Shown here piece after piece: positions 29,968-33,744 of a DNA stretch of 64,000 bases. Origin of the DNA: Celeribacter baekdonensis (GTDB taxonomy: Bacteria; Pseudomonadota; Alphaproteobacteria; Rhodobacterales; Rhodobacteraceae); assembly GCF_900102315.1 (NCBI RefSeq), contig NZ_FNBL01000001.1, forward strand, positions 261,841 through 325,840. The letters are read 5' to 3'. Made by a program: the position numbers and the translations under genes. The notes below the pieces were generated by a model, which saw only the letters and a program-made list of their open reading frames with translations, ran no database searches and had not been told where the DNA came from. How positions within the stretch are numbered: the stretch's first letter is position 1; each line of letters starts with the position of its first letter.

Positions 29968-32277
29968 TTAATAAAACTGCGCCTGAACCGTGGCCGTCAA
30001 TTCCGACAGGGAAAACGGTTTGGGCAGGAACACCGAATTGGGGATGCGCGCCTGTTGTTCCGTGAAATGATCCTCGGCATAGCCCGAGACAAACACCACT
30101 TTCACATCGGGCCGGGTTTTAAGGGCCTCCGAGACCCAGCTTGGCCCATCCATCCCCGGCATGATCACGTCAGAGACAAACACATCAATATGCAGGCTGC
30201 TGTCTTCGAGCGTTTCCAAAGCCTCTTCGGCATTTTCCGCCTCGATCACCGTGTAGCCCCGCAACCGCAAGGCGCGCGAGGCAAAGGCACGCACAGGCGC
30301 CTCGTCTTCGACCAAAAGAATCACCCCGGAGCCGCGCTCCGTGGGCACAGATGCATCAGGAATCGGTTTGGTTGCCGCCTCAACCACCGCCTCAGCCCGC
30401 GCGGTATGCGCAGGCAGAAAGATGGTAAAGGCGGTGCCAGACCCGACCACGGAGTCCAAAAAGATAAAGCCCCCGGTTTGTTTGATGATCCCATATGCCG
30501 TCGATAGGCCAAGGCCCGTGCCCTCGCCCGTCCGTTTGGTGGTGAAAAACGGCTCGAACACTTTTTGCAACCGCTCAGGCGGAATGCCAACCCCCTGATC
30601 TGAGACGCTGACCACGACATATTCGCCCGCAGGCACCGTGGCCCGATCTCTGGTAAAGGCTTGGCGCAGCACTTCGTTACGGGTTTCGACCTTGATCTCT
30701 CCGCCCGTCGGCATGGCGTCACGGGCGTTCACCACAAGGTTCATGATCACCTGTTCAAGCTGGCGTTTGTCGACCCGGATTGGCAACAGACCCGCGTCAT
30801 GGCTGAGGGTAAGGGTCACTTTCTCCCCGACCAGCCTGTTCAGCAAATGGGTCAGATCAGACAGGGTATCGCGCAGGTCGATGACCTCGGGCTTGAGGGT
30901 CTGTTTGCGTGAAAAGGCCAACAATTGACCAACAAGCGACGCGGCACGGTTGGCGTTTTGATGGATTTGGACAAGATCGCCATAATCCGGGTCGGACTTG
31001 TCATGACGCAACAGCAACAGGTCACAATGGCCGGAAATGGCCGTCAAAAGGTTGTTAAAATCATGCGCCACGCCGCCGGCCAACTGACCGATGGCCTGCA
31101 TTTTCTGGCTTTGAACAAATTGCGCCTCAAGCGATTTGAGCTCGGTTGCATCTGAGAGCACCGCGATCAATTCGATCTCATCCCCCTTGCCTTCGACCCG
31201 GCTCAGGGTGATTTGCAGGAATGTGTCGTTTTGCGGCCGCGCCGCGCGGACAAATTCCGGCTTGCGCGCCCGCGCCATGGCCACATCCGTCACCCAATCC
31301 TGCACAGGTCGCCCCAGCCCTTCGACCAAATCGCCGAGTCTGAGTTGATCATGGGCCATGATCGACAAAAGTTCGCGCGCGGGTCGGTTGGATTGTAAAA
31401 TCCGACCATCGACAGACACTTTCAAAAGCGCCACAGGCAACGCATCAAAGGCGTCCCATTCACCCAAAGAGGGGGTTTTTTCTGGCAAGAAATACACTTC
31501 CTTGCGCCCAGAGCCGCCCGTTTCAAACTGGGCCACACGGGCATAGACGCGCCCTTCGGCACCCGACAAAACATGCACATCACCATGGCGGAGCGGCAGG
31601 TCGGTCACCACCCGATCCAAGGTCTTTTCGCGATGACCGATCAAGCGGCGCATGGCCTCATTCATAAACAGCACCGCATTATTTTTGCTCAGGGTCATCA
31701 TCGGCAATGCCAAAGCCTCGCCGTCCAGGGTGCTGCCCTTTTCGACCATATCGTCCAAGCGCCATAGAAACCCGTCCTCCCCGATCATATGCACACCAAG
31801 GCGCACATGACCGTGGCGCATCACCACATCTTCGCGCGCGCCGCCCTTGGCCAAAGCCCGCGATTGCAGCCGCGCCAAAGTGGTGGCTGGAGCGGCAAAA
31901 AGATCCTCAAGGGCCGCCAAGAGCGTCTCTCCGCCCCGCCCGCCAAACCGACCGATGGCCGCCCGGTTTTCATAGCCGATCACACCATCAAGATCCGTGG
32001 TGAAACAGGGCGCCGCATCATTGGCCACAAATTGGGCAAGGGCGTTGTGCACACGTTTGCGCGCGGTTTTGCGCAGATGGGTCAGCAGGCGCACCAGAAT
32101 GGCAGCCCAAAGCAAGACCGCCCCAGTGCCAAAAGCCAAAAGACCAAATCGCGGCAGCGGCAACACCAGAGCCGCGCCACAGAGCAAAAGCCCGCCAATG
32201 GCAATGGTCATACTATAAGGAGCAAGGCGCTCGGCCTGTTTAGACAATGGGCCCGCTGTCATGCTGACGCTCGTCAC
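29968..32277 (-). CDS. cckA: Hybrid sensor kinase CckA
   Basis: About 769 residues from GTG 32277, which has GAGGGGGG 5-6 bases upstream; a 24-residue longer frame to 32349 crosses a repeat array and is rejected. Two N-terminal membrane helices (residues about 21-64), PAS-like sensor region, then the HisKA phosphoacceptor in GGVAHDFNNLLTAISGHCDL, an ATPase domain with VSDQGVGIPPERL and TGLGLSTAYGI, and a receiver with Asp in VSDVIMPGMDG. That order and the AHDFNNLLTAI motif are CckA, which feeds phosphate via ChpT to CtrA. A CtrA-type box and a palindrome array precede the gene. Confidence 0.92.
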   Translation of the reverse strand: MTSVSMTAGPLSKQAERLAPYSMTIAIGGLLLCGAALVLPLPRFGLLAFGTGAVLLWAAILVRLLTHLRKTARKRVHNALAQFVANDAAPCFTTDLDGVIGYENRAAIGRFGGRGGETLLAALEDLFAAPATTLARLQSRALAKGGAREDVVMRHGHVRLGVHMIGEDGFLWRLDDMVEKGSTLDGEALALPMMTLSKNNAVLFMNEAMRRLIGHREKTLDRVVTDLPLRHGDVHVLSGAEGRVYARVAQFETGGSGRKEVYFLPEKTPSLGEWDAFDALPVALLKVSVDGRILQSNRPARELLSIMAHDQLRLGDLVEGLGRPVQDWVTDVAMARARKPEFVRAARPQNDTFLQITLSRVEGKGDEIELIAVLSDATELKSLEAQFVQSQKMQAIGQLAGGVAHDFNNLLTAISGHCDLLLLRHDKSDPDYGDLVQIHQNANRAASLVGQLLAFSRKQTLKPEVIDLRDTLSDLTHLLNRLVGEKVTLTLSHDAGLLPIRVDKRQLEQVIMNLVVNARDAMPTGGEIKVETRNEVLRQAFTRDRATVPAGEYVVVSVSDQGVGIPPERLQKVFEPFFTTKRTGEGTGLGLSTAYGIIKQTGGFIFLDSVVGSGTAFTIFLPAHTARAEAVVEAATKPIPDASVPTERGSGVILLVEDEAPVRAFASRALRLRGYTVIEAENAEEALETLEDSSLHIDVFVSDVIMPGMDGPSWVSEALKTRPDVKVVFVSGYAEDHFTEQQARIPNSVFLPKPFSLSELTATVQAQFY

Positions 32278-32291
32278 ATATCCCCCCTCGT

Positions 32292-32350
32292 CGTGCAGTG
32301 CACGCAATTCTAAACGTGCAGTGCACGCAATTCTAAACGTGCGATGCACG
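32292..32350 (-). repeat. Three palindromes in a 23-bp tandem array just upstream of cckA
   Basis: CGTGCAGTGCACG, a perfect odd palindrome, occurs at 32292-32304 and 32315-32327, each followed by the same CAATTCTAAA, giving two exact 23-bp repeats. A degenerate third copy (CGTGCGATGCACG) is at 32338-32350. The spacing is close to two helical turns, so all sites would face one side of DNA. It starts 15 bases from the cckA start. Confidence 0.85.
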
Positions 32351-32431
32351 CGGCTTTGGGAGCAGAATGCCCCAGACTGTCCGGTGAATCGGGTCGATCC
32401 CGATCCGTTCCTCTCTTGTGCGATGATTTGG

Positions 32432-32446
32432 TTAATGACGCTTTAA
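32432..32446 (-). promoter_or_regulatory. Candidate CtrA box upstream of cckA
   Basis: On the - strand TTAA-AGCGTCA-TTAAC, an exact match to the CtrA consensus TTAA-N7-TTAAC, 155 bases before the cckA GTG. Function inferred from the motif and from CckA being the kinase at the head of the CtrA pathway. Confidence 0.6.
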
Positions 32447-32559
32447 GAGCGGAGGTTGGAAGGAGGATAGACACCGAAAAACTATCGGTAAAGTTGTATT
32501 GTTAACCTTTATTGCCCCTAATGAGGGTTTTAAACGTCACCTCAGAGCACAACAGCGCG

Positions 32560-33744
32560 TCAGAGCACAACCGCGCGCTGAAACACCGCGATGAAAAATC
32601 CGTCACCACCCTCAAGCGGGCTGACATGGCGGCTCATGCGCAGGGAGAATTCGGGGTGGCGCGCGGCGAATTTGGCCACTTGATCGTCGTTTTCGACTTT
32701 GAAAAGCGAACAGGTGGCATAGGCCAGATGGCCGCCGGGACGCACACGCGGCGCAACTTCGTCCAGAATATTCGCCTGAATTTGCACCAAATGCGACAGC
32801 CGGTTTTCGGTCAGCGCCCATTTGCCCTGTGGGCTGCGTGAAAACGCCCCCGAGCCACTACAGGGCACATCGCAGAGGATCAGATCATAGGCCTTGGCCA
32901 ATTCAGAGGTGCGGGCCAAAGTGATGTCAATCCCGGCGCGAGACGCACGTGGGGCGATGTCCTGCATCCGGGCGGGATCAATGTCATGGGCGGTCAATTT
33001 CACATCCGCGCGCGCGCCGATGGCCAAGGCTTTGCCCCCGCCCCCGGCACAATAATCCAACACCGATTGTCCGGGTTCCAGCGGCAAAACATCAAGGATC
33101 GCCTGAGATCCAACATCCTGAATCTCAACCAACCCCGTGAGATAGGCCTGAGACCGGGCCACAGCACGGGCATTGCGGGTGACTTTGAGCGCGGTGTCGC
33201 ACAGAGGATGCGGCACCGCGTCAATGTCGTCTTTGTGCAAGGCCTCACGGGCCGTGTCCAAAGTTGCCTTGCGCGGATTCACCCGCAAAAACACCTCGGA
33301 GCGGTGGCGCAACAGCTCAAGTACGGCATCCGCATCGGCGCCCAAACTGGCGTCATAAAGTGGCAAAAGCCAGTCCGGACAATCCAATCGCACACCGCGC
33401 GGCGCGGTTTCAAGCGGCGCGGGAAGCTCGCGTTCACCTTCGTGCAAGGGGCGCGGAGCAAAGCGGTCGGTGCAAAAAAGCGTGTCGGGATCGGTGCCCG
33501 CCGCGCGCAACGCGCCCAGGATCAATTGCCGACCTGAGGGGCGTTCCCCGGCCCCACCGAGCCAAGCATAAGAGCGCAGACAGCGGATCGCATCAAAGAC
33601 CAGATCGCGGATCGCGGCGCGGTCTTTCGAGCCGGCATAGCGGTGACCGCGCGCCCATGTTGTCAGCACCCGTTCGGCATTTTCGCCAACGAGAACGTCA
33701 TCCAGAATTTCGATTGCGGCGGAAAGGCGAGCGGCTGGTGTCAT
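32560..33744 (-). CDS. RsmB/NOP family RNA (cytosine-5) methyltransferase
   Basis: 394 residues. SAM-binding motif VLDYCAGGGGKALAIGA, a second motif DPARMQ, the PC motif CDVPCSGSGAFSRSP and the TC motif ATCSLFKVEN with the catalytic Cys, in the order of m5C rRNA methyltransferases. An N-terminal NusB/RsmB-like helical region precedes it. Probably methylates 16S or 23S rRNA; the exact target is unknown. Reads toward cckA; between them lies the array and CtrA-type box. Confidence 0.9.
   Translation of the reverse strand: MTPAARLSAAIEILDDVLVGENAERVLTTWARGHRYAGSKDRAAIRDLVFDAIRCLRSYAWLGGAGERPSGRQLILGALRAAGTDPDTLFCTDRFAPRPLHEGERELPAPLETAPRGVRLDCPDWLLPLYDASLGADADAVLELLRHRSEVFLRVNPRKATLDTAREALHKDDIDAVPHPLCDTALKVTRNARAVARSQAYLTGLVEIQDVGSQAILDVLPLEPGQSVLDYCAGGGGKALAIGARADVKLTAHDIDPARMQDIAPRASRAGIDITLARTSELAKAYDLILCDVPCSGSGAFSRSPQGKWALTENRLSHLVQIQANILDEVAPRVRPGGHLAYATCSLFKVENDDQVAKFAARHPEFSLRMSRHVSPLEGGDGFFIAVFQRAVVL

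Follow-up and report, generated by a model that had tools for sequence, protein, structure and literature searches.

What might a phased-looking series of short palindromes do when it directly precedes the ribosome site of a gene for a master regulator? In the window, the whole 64-kb stretch of Celeribacter DNA analysed here, such an array stands in front of cckA. According to the available parts of four papers on related bacteria, CtrA, which controls motility, gene transfer agents and cell differentiation, receives phosphate from CckA (PMC2877005, PMC3692519, PMC4046655, PMC6473078). The initial annotation offered two guesses, an array that binds an unknown repressor or a set of self-complementary hairpins in the 5' untranslated RNA. 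The second of these fits our results better, while the repressor array fared poorly.

The array and its place before cckA

All elements of the array are read here on the minus strand, in the sense of cckA. Its 23-bp unit consists of two 5-bp arms, a 3-nt loop and a 10-nt spacer. The hairpin copy nearest the start (32292-32304) and the middle copy (32315-32327) both read CGTGC-ACT-GCACG, and we confirmed the two exact 23-bp copies described earlier (32292-32314 and 32315-32337, spacing 23, each with CGTGCA-G-TGCACG). The third, far copy (32338-32350; sense CGTGC-ATC-GCACG, plus strand CGTGCGATGCACG) is also present, but calling it degenerate was an overstatement since it retains both 5-bp arms and only its central three bases are changed. 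Along the minus strand, the three 13-nt cores are split by TTTAGAATTG (far spacer 32328-32337, near spacer 32305-32314) and are followed by ACGAGGGGGG-ATAT-GTG, which comprises the Shine-Dalgarno-like (SD-like) site and the chosen cckA start. The SD-like sequence GAGGGGGG (32282-32289, minus strand) was read from the sequence, and the GTG (32277-32275), picked from SD spacing and from relatives, opens the putative cckA coding sequence (29968-32277, minus strand). The array lies 14 nt from this start, in agreement with the claim that it directly precedes the ribosome site of cckA. In NCBIfam, the product best matches the two models for CckA, with E values of 8e-167 and 1e-135 that fall short of the curated cut-offs, and the gene upstream of cckA matches RsmB models. 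At the 3' end of this rsmB-like gene there is also an 18-bp tandem duplication (32542-32577) that repeats the last codons and the stop; it is present as a single copy in the related genome G001.

The array has the top tandem-repeat score of the window (106, the next being 65), and no other exact repetition of at least 20 nt occurs there within 60 bp. Perfect 5-3-5 inverted repeats by themselves are ordinary, the window having 95 where shuffling gives 80.8 on average. What exceeds chance is the presence of similar ones side by side: three such pairs occur in the window, all from the array, compared with one pair in 40 dinucleotide shuffles.

Two upstream elements on the minus strand might direct transcription of cckA. 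One is a CtrA-box sequence, TTAA-N7-TTAA (32432-32446), 169 nt before the cckA start and the only one in the 330 nt before it; a CtrA site within the array was rejected, as no TTAA-N7-TTAA is found there. The other is a putative promoter-like motif of TTTACC (-35, 32487-32492) and TATCCT (-10, 32464-32469) separated by 17 nt, which lies 215 nt before the cckA start and 46 nt upstream of the CtrA box, and which is absent from the output of a generic promoter scan. Cognate leaders were taken from 19 of the 20 genomes of the genus, since the match in G017 is without a gene start. A motif of the TTTACC-N17-TATCCT form occurs in 17 of these 19 leaders, a count that is descriptive because the pattern was composed after viewing them, and 15 of the 19 have a CtrA box. 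The box lies 143-193 nt before the start in ten of the 15 boxed leaders and 75-99 nt in the other five; in the window, the array occupies the gene-proximal part of this box-to-start stretch. Among 78 of the 80 named loci (all except L052 and L082), the box was found upstream of cckA in 75, including 71 of the 74 outside the genus, where 57 of the 71 boxed loci have it 55-70 nt ahead of the residue-1 position.

CtrA sites at cckA are predicted for Rhodobacterales in the accessible portions of PMC2877005 and PMC4046655 and for Dinoroseobacter in that of PMC6473078. For Ruegeria, the available part of PMC3692519 describes a CtrA site 62 bp upstream of cckA and states that extra ctrA left cckA expression unaltered. 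The window's cckA shares the box with this type of control as outlined in those sections of the four papers (PMC2877005, PMC3692519, PMC4046655, PMC6473078), whereas the array is a separate element between the box and the SD. Since the array is downstream of both the CtrA box and the promoter-like motif, it is probably transcribed, and it would lie in the 5' untranslated RNA of cckA if either element directs transcription.

A further pattern was observed at the boxed cckA loci. In 56 of 75 (L033-L112), the CtrA box is followed within 45 nt by a GANTC sequence (CcrM-type), mostly 25-29 nt past the end of the box, and shuffling of the same stretches gives 15%. No mention of this pattern at cckA is made in the available parts of PMC2877005 and PMC8116508. 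Between -330 and +20, GANTC is absent in G001 and G002, and in the window it is further down, at -113. The position of GANTC after the box suggests methylation-linked control of cckA across the Rhodobacteraceae.

Distribution and turnover of the repeat units

Conservation of the array across the Rhodobacteraceae, which had been proposed as a check, was not found. With a two-unit pattern and at most two mismatches, the array was detected in three of the 20 genomes of the genus (G000, G001 and G002), each time solely at cckA. In a family sample of 394 genomes, 392 of them outside the genus and G001 and G002 not among them, the window's own array is the lone match with fewer than two mismatches; in the 23 other genomes that were hit, every match has two mismatches. 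The CckA protein was matched in all 20 genomes of the genus (one match is partial), with an identity to that of the window of 99% in G001, 96% in G002 and 86% in the next nearest genomes, which are without the array.

There are three copies in G000, three in G001 and four in G002, compared between species with one genome per species, and the 23-bp period is constant. Both spacers are TTTAGAATTG in G000 and TTTAGAATGG in G001, and three loops of G002 are ACC, as opposed to the ACT of the near two copies in both G000 and G001. As these changes are common to the copies within a species, they point to concerted evolution of the copies by homogenisation. The homogenisation is partial: the far copy deviates in each species, and the spacers of G002 are unlike each other (TAGGTCATTG, TTTAGAATTG and TAGGTAATTG). 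The arms are unaltered in eight of the ten copies. Relative to G000, fourfold-degenerate sites of cckA differ by 0.13 in G001 and by 0.35 in G002, and the leader upstream of the array by 0.07 and 0.18, respectively.

Minisatellites (VNTRs) are a known kind of repeat in bacterial gene leaders. The array is like them in its head-to-tail copies, in the changes shared within species and in the copy-number difference between species, and its tandem copies are homogenised within a genome apart from the far copies and the G002 spacers. It differs from them in that the unit is itself an inverted repeat near the SD of a master regulator gene.

Tandem repeats scoring at least 45 occur in five of the 19 cckA leaders of the genus and represent three origins (the array species, G013 and G003). 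In G013 (L010), an unrelated, hairpin-like 21-bp unit is present in 2.8 copies at -82 to -23, the same place before cckA, and the leader of G003 has an 11-bp tandem unit. None of 152 cckA coding pieces reached this score (8 rows, maximum 40), the control being restricted to coding DNA. In G008 and G009, 5-3-5 inverted repeats of a different sequence can also be seen by eye directly against the SD, and one base pair differs between the two in a compensatory way (G-C to A-T). As single hairpins they are no better than shuffled sequence (fractions 0.215 and 0.205), and the fold predicted for the leader of G009 is without its hairpin seen by eye.

The array as a possible protein-binding site

According to the repressor reading, the array is a set of DNA operators for a dimeric protein, near or downstream of the promoter. 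We consider this quite unlikely. In its favour, two of the three copies are perfect 13-bp palindromes adjoining the gene start. In the 4.44-Mb genome, the exact 13-mer is found at just two places, each of them inside the array. Nine CGTGCNNNGCACG sites were found in all: three are those of the array, and the other six lie within stop-to-stop frames of at least 120 codons, although one of the six (in L117) probably precedes the true start of its gene. The search for further palindrome copies thus yielded no regulon-like set, and a palindrome regulon was rejected on the grounds that the six other sites fall in open frames. The site in L117 (1501-1513) is a single CGTGC-TAA-GCACG before a gene whose product starts with MRLICPNCGAQYEVD and was labelled zinc-ribbon by eye. 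It is identical in G000, G001 and G002, that is, in three of the 18 genomes with the upstream region shown (L163-L165); the remaining genomes have other sequence before this gene, some of it self-complementary by eye. We take this shared occurrence as chance.

The resemblance of the array to PhaR sites is the other point in favour of an operator. In the available part of PMC12542648, alphaproteobacterial PhaR sites are given as CTGCNNNGCAG and as YGCRNYGCR with arms, and the R. sphaeroides consensus as CTGC-N3-GCAG half-sites; the array core, TGC-RNY-GCA, is similar to the inner part of these sites. It fits the inner nine bases, and the centre is of the RNY type (ACT, ATC or ACC) in eight of the ten copies, the far copies of G001 and G002 having TAA, while the half-sites of the array are GTGC-N3-GCAC instead of CTGC-N3-GCAG. 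A PhaR N-terminal family is present in 19 of the 20 genomes of the genus, and phasin-family matches in 18, of which 16 are above the cut-off. Upstream of phaP (e.g. L148, L147 and L144), we observed two PhaR-type sites like TTTCTGC-RNY-GCAGCAT, 28-30 bp apart, in all 18 genomes of the genus examined. From these, 36 sites were hand-picked from loose-pattern matches (two per genome, one phaP locus in each of 18 genomes, others omitted). All 36 have the RNY centre, with C at position -5 and G at position +5. What the array shares with them is the central TGC-RNY-GCA core, but it has G and C at these two positions and is without the bases that flank them. Its three copies reach scores of -6.2, -9.0 and -17.2, whereas the 36 training sites reach 16.5-26.4, and a PhaR operator array was rejected on these scores.

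LexA boxes are of the GTTC-N7-GTTC type. No GAAC/GTTC-N7-GAAC/GTTC site was found from -330 to +20 in any of the 19 leaders of the genus, and a LexA operator was therefore rejected. In Rhodobacter capsulatus, LexA acts on the cckA promoter, according to the accessible portion of PMC6473078.

The geometry also speaks against an operator. The initial annotation expected the sites to lie on one face of the helix; 23 bp corresponds to 2.19 turns at 10.5 bp/turn, so that successive centres are turned by about 69 degrees and the period is out of helical phase. In addition, dyad symmetry is lost in two of the ten copies, and the array is positioned downstream of the promoter-like elements. With neither regulon-like sites nor a PhaR, LexA or CtrA match, the array of sites for an unknown repressor found no support.

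The probable leader RNA and the readings of the array

As cckA-sense RNA, all 50 stem pairs of the ten copies can pair, 47 of them as Watson-Crick and three as G-U. The three G-U pairs sit in the far copies of G001 and G002; they are mismatched in the antisense and as double-stranded symmetry, and these are the two copies in which the dyad is broken. This sense-only pairing leans towards an RNA role, although the copies are non-independent and the events few, as the three G-U pairs may represent just two. For the 116-nt array region, predicted folding is only slightly stronger than in shuffles (z -1.45). The 226-nt leader gave z -3.17, but since it begins within the -10 motif, its outer pairs might not form in the cell. 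The predicted folds join neighbouring units, namely the near two of G000 and of G001 and, in G002, two pairs of two.

Between the box and the SD, leaders of the genus have a mean z of -1.54; two coding stretches gave -0.48 and -0.77, and the antisense gave -0.75. Several of the leaders are near 0 (L006, L012) and L017 is positive. From -88 to -12, the 19 cckA leaders have a mean z of -1.98, with ten below -2 and the sense strand more structured than the antisense in 15. For 42 genes of the window, cckA itself included and starts guessed by a script from SD-like motifs, the mean is -0.57, with six below -2 and the sense ahead in 25. Other leaders gave means of -0.89 (the zinc-ribbon-labelled gene, 18 leaders), -1.46 (phaP, 18) and -0.94 (non-genus cckA, 27). 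The cckA leaders of the genus differ from those of the zinc-ribbon-labelled gene (p 0.011) and from non-genus cckA (p 0.004), also when relatives were merged by eye from 19 leaders into 12 groups (0.016 and 0.013), but they are not significantly more structured than phaP leaders of the same genus (p 0.098; 0.11 merged). A family-wide structured cckA leader was rejected on the mean of the non-genus loci, which were 27 of the 28 named loci with a match starting within residue 8 (all except L054). Within the 35 nt that precede the SD, eight of the 19 leaders, which fall in three related groups, have a best hairpin stronger than in shuffles (at most 0.05). We regard leader structure across the genus as a tendency, not as proof.

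Structured 5' leaders can tune translation or mRNA decay. The hairpins of the array likewise lie in probable untranslated RNA beside the SD; they differ from such leaders in that their sequence is unconserved in the genus, that Rfam 15 covariance models gave no match up to E = 1 (32000-32700), and that masking of the SD is not clearly predicted. In the three species, predicted SD openness was 0.34, 0.51 and 0.58 with the array and 0.40, 0.48 and 0.64 without it, and start-codon openness 0.35, 0.29 and 0.20 with the array and 0.38, 0.35 and 0.35 without it. SD sequestration by the array is not favoured, as its removal in silico had no clear effect on the SD; openness around the start codon is predicted to be somewhat lower with the array in all three species. 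The hairpins might instead act on transcription, each hairpin and the TTTA after it slowing RNA polymerase in the leader as a pause or attenuation element. GC-rich 5-bp stems are indeed followed by TTTAGAATT in two of the three copies; however, the copy nearest to the gene is followed by ACGAGG and not by T, and 32250-32650 contains no terminator-like site, which makes this very improbable. An intrinsic terminator (GC stem and T run) was rejected on the same scan, with none in 32250-32650.

We infer that this is a lineage-specific, partly homogenised tandem hairpin array in the cckA 5' leader with a modest effect on translation or mRNA stability, and our confidence in this reading as a whole is about even. 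One 23-bp unit would have been tandemly duplicated in the lineage of the three close species, its copies partly homogenising within each. In the mRNA, each unit may fold singly or pair with its neighbour just upstream of the ribosome site. Provided that the array is transcribed and that the hairpins fold in the cell, they might modestly tune cckA translation or mRNA stability, and a role in tuning CckA output would be plausible. It is also possible, and a serious rival to the functional reading, that the array is a neutral minisatellite, in which slippage or recombination expands and homogenises a unit in an insertion-tolerant leader with no effect on cckA; we think this somewhat improbable yet well worth holding. 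The restriction of the array to three of 20 genomes is consistent with neutrality, as are the variable distance from the CtrA box to the start (the two length classes within the genus and the mostly 55-70 nt outside it), the separate 18-bp duplication in the same rsmB-cckA region, single in G001, and the small shift in predicted SD openness upon removal of the array. Against it are the tendency of leaders across the genus to be structured and the arms that are unaltered in eight of ten copies and pair in the sense RNA in all ten, compared with a 35% fourfold and an 18% flank difference between G000 and G002. This latter argument is weak because the copies are homogenised.

A broader version of the hairpin reading is a fast-evolving, structured cckA leader RNA in which hairpins are needed but their sequence is not, and in which at least two unit duplications (of 23 bp and 21 bp) would let evolution adjust how strongly the CckA-ChpT-CtrA phosphorelay puts out. 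We regard it as speculative and rather unlikely.

The array is unreported in the literature that was searched on cckA leaders, leader repeats or hairpins and post-transcriptional control of CckA, a scope outside which most subscription literature falls; this search also returned nothing on the cckA untranslated region in Rhodobacteraceae or on CckA in Celeribacter. One paper reportedly concerns an RNA that acts on CtrA and GcrA. If the array is neutral, it would be a neat case of concerted evolution, a palindromic minisatellite before a core regulator. If it is true that the number of hairpin copies tunes CckA output, the array would provide a simple way for related species to reset this switch.
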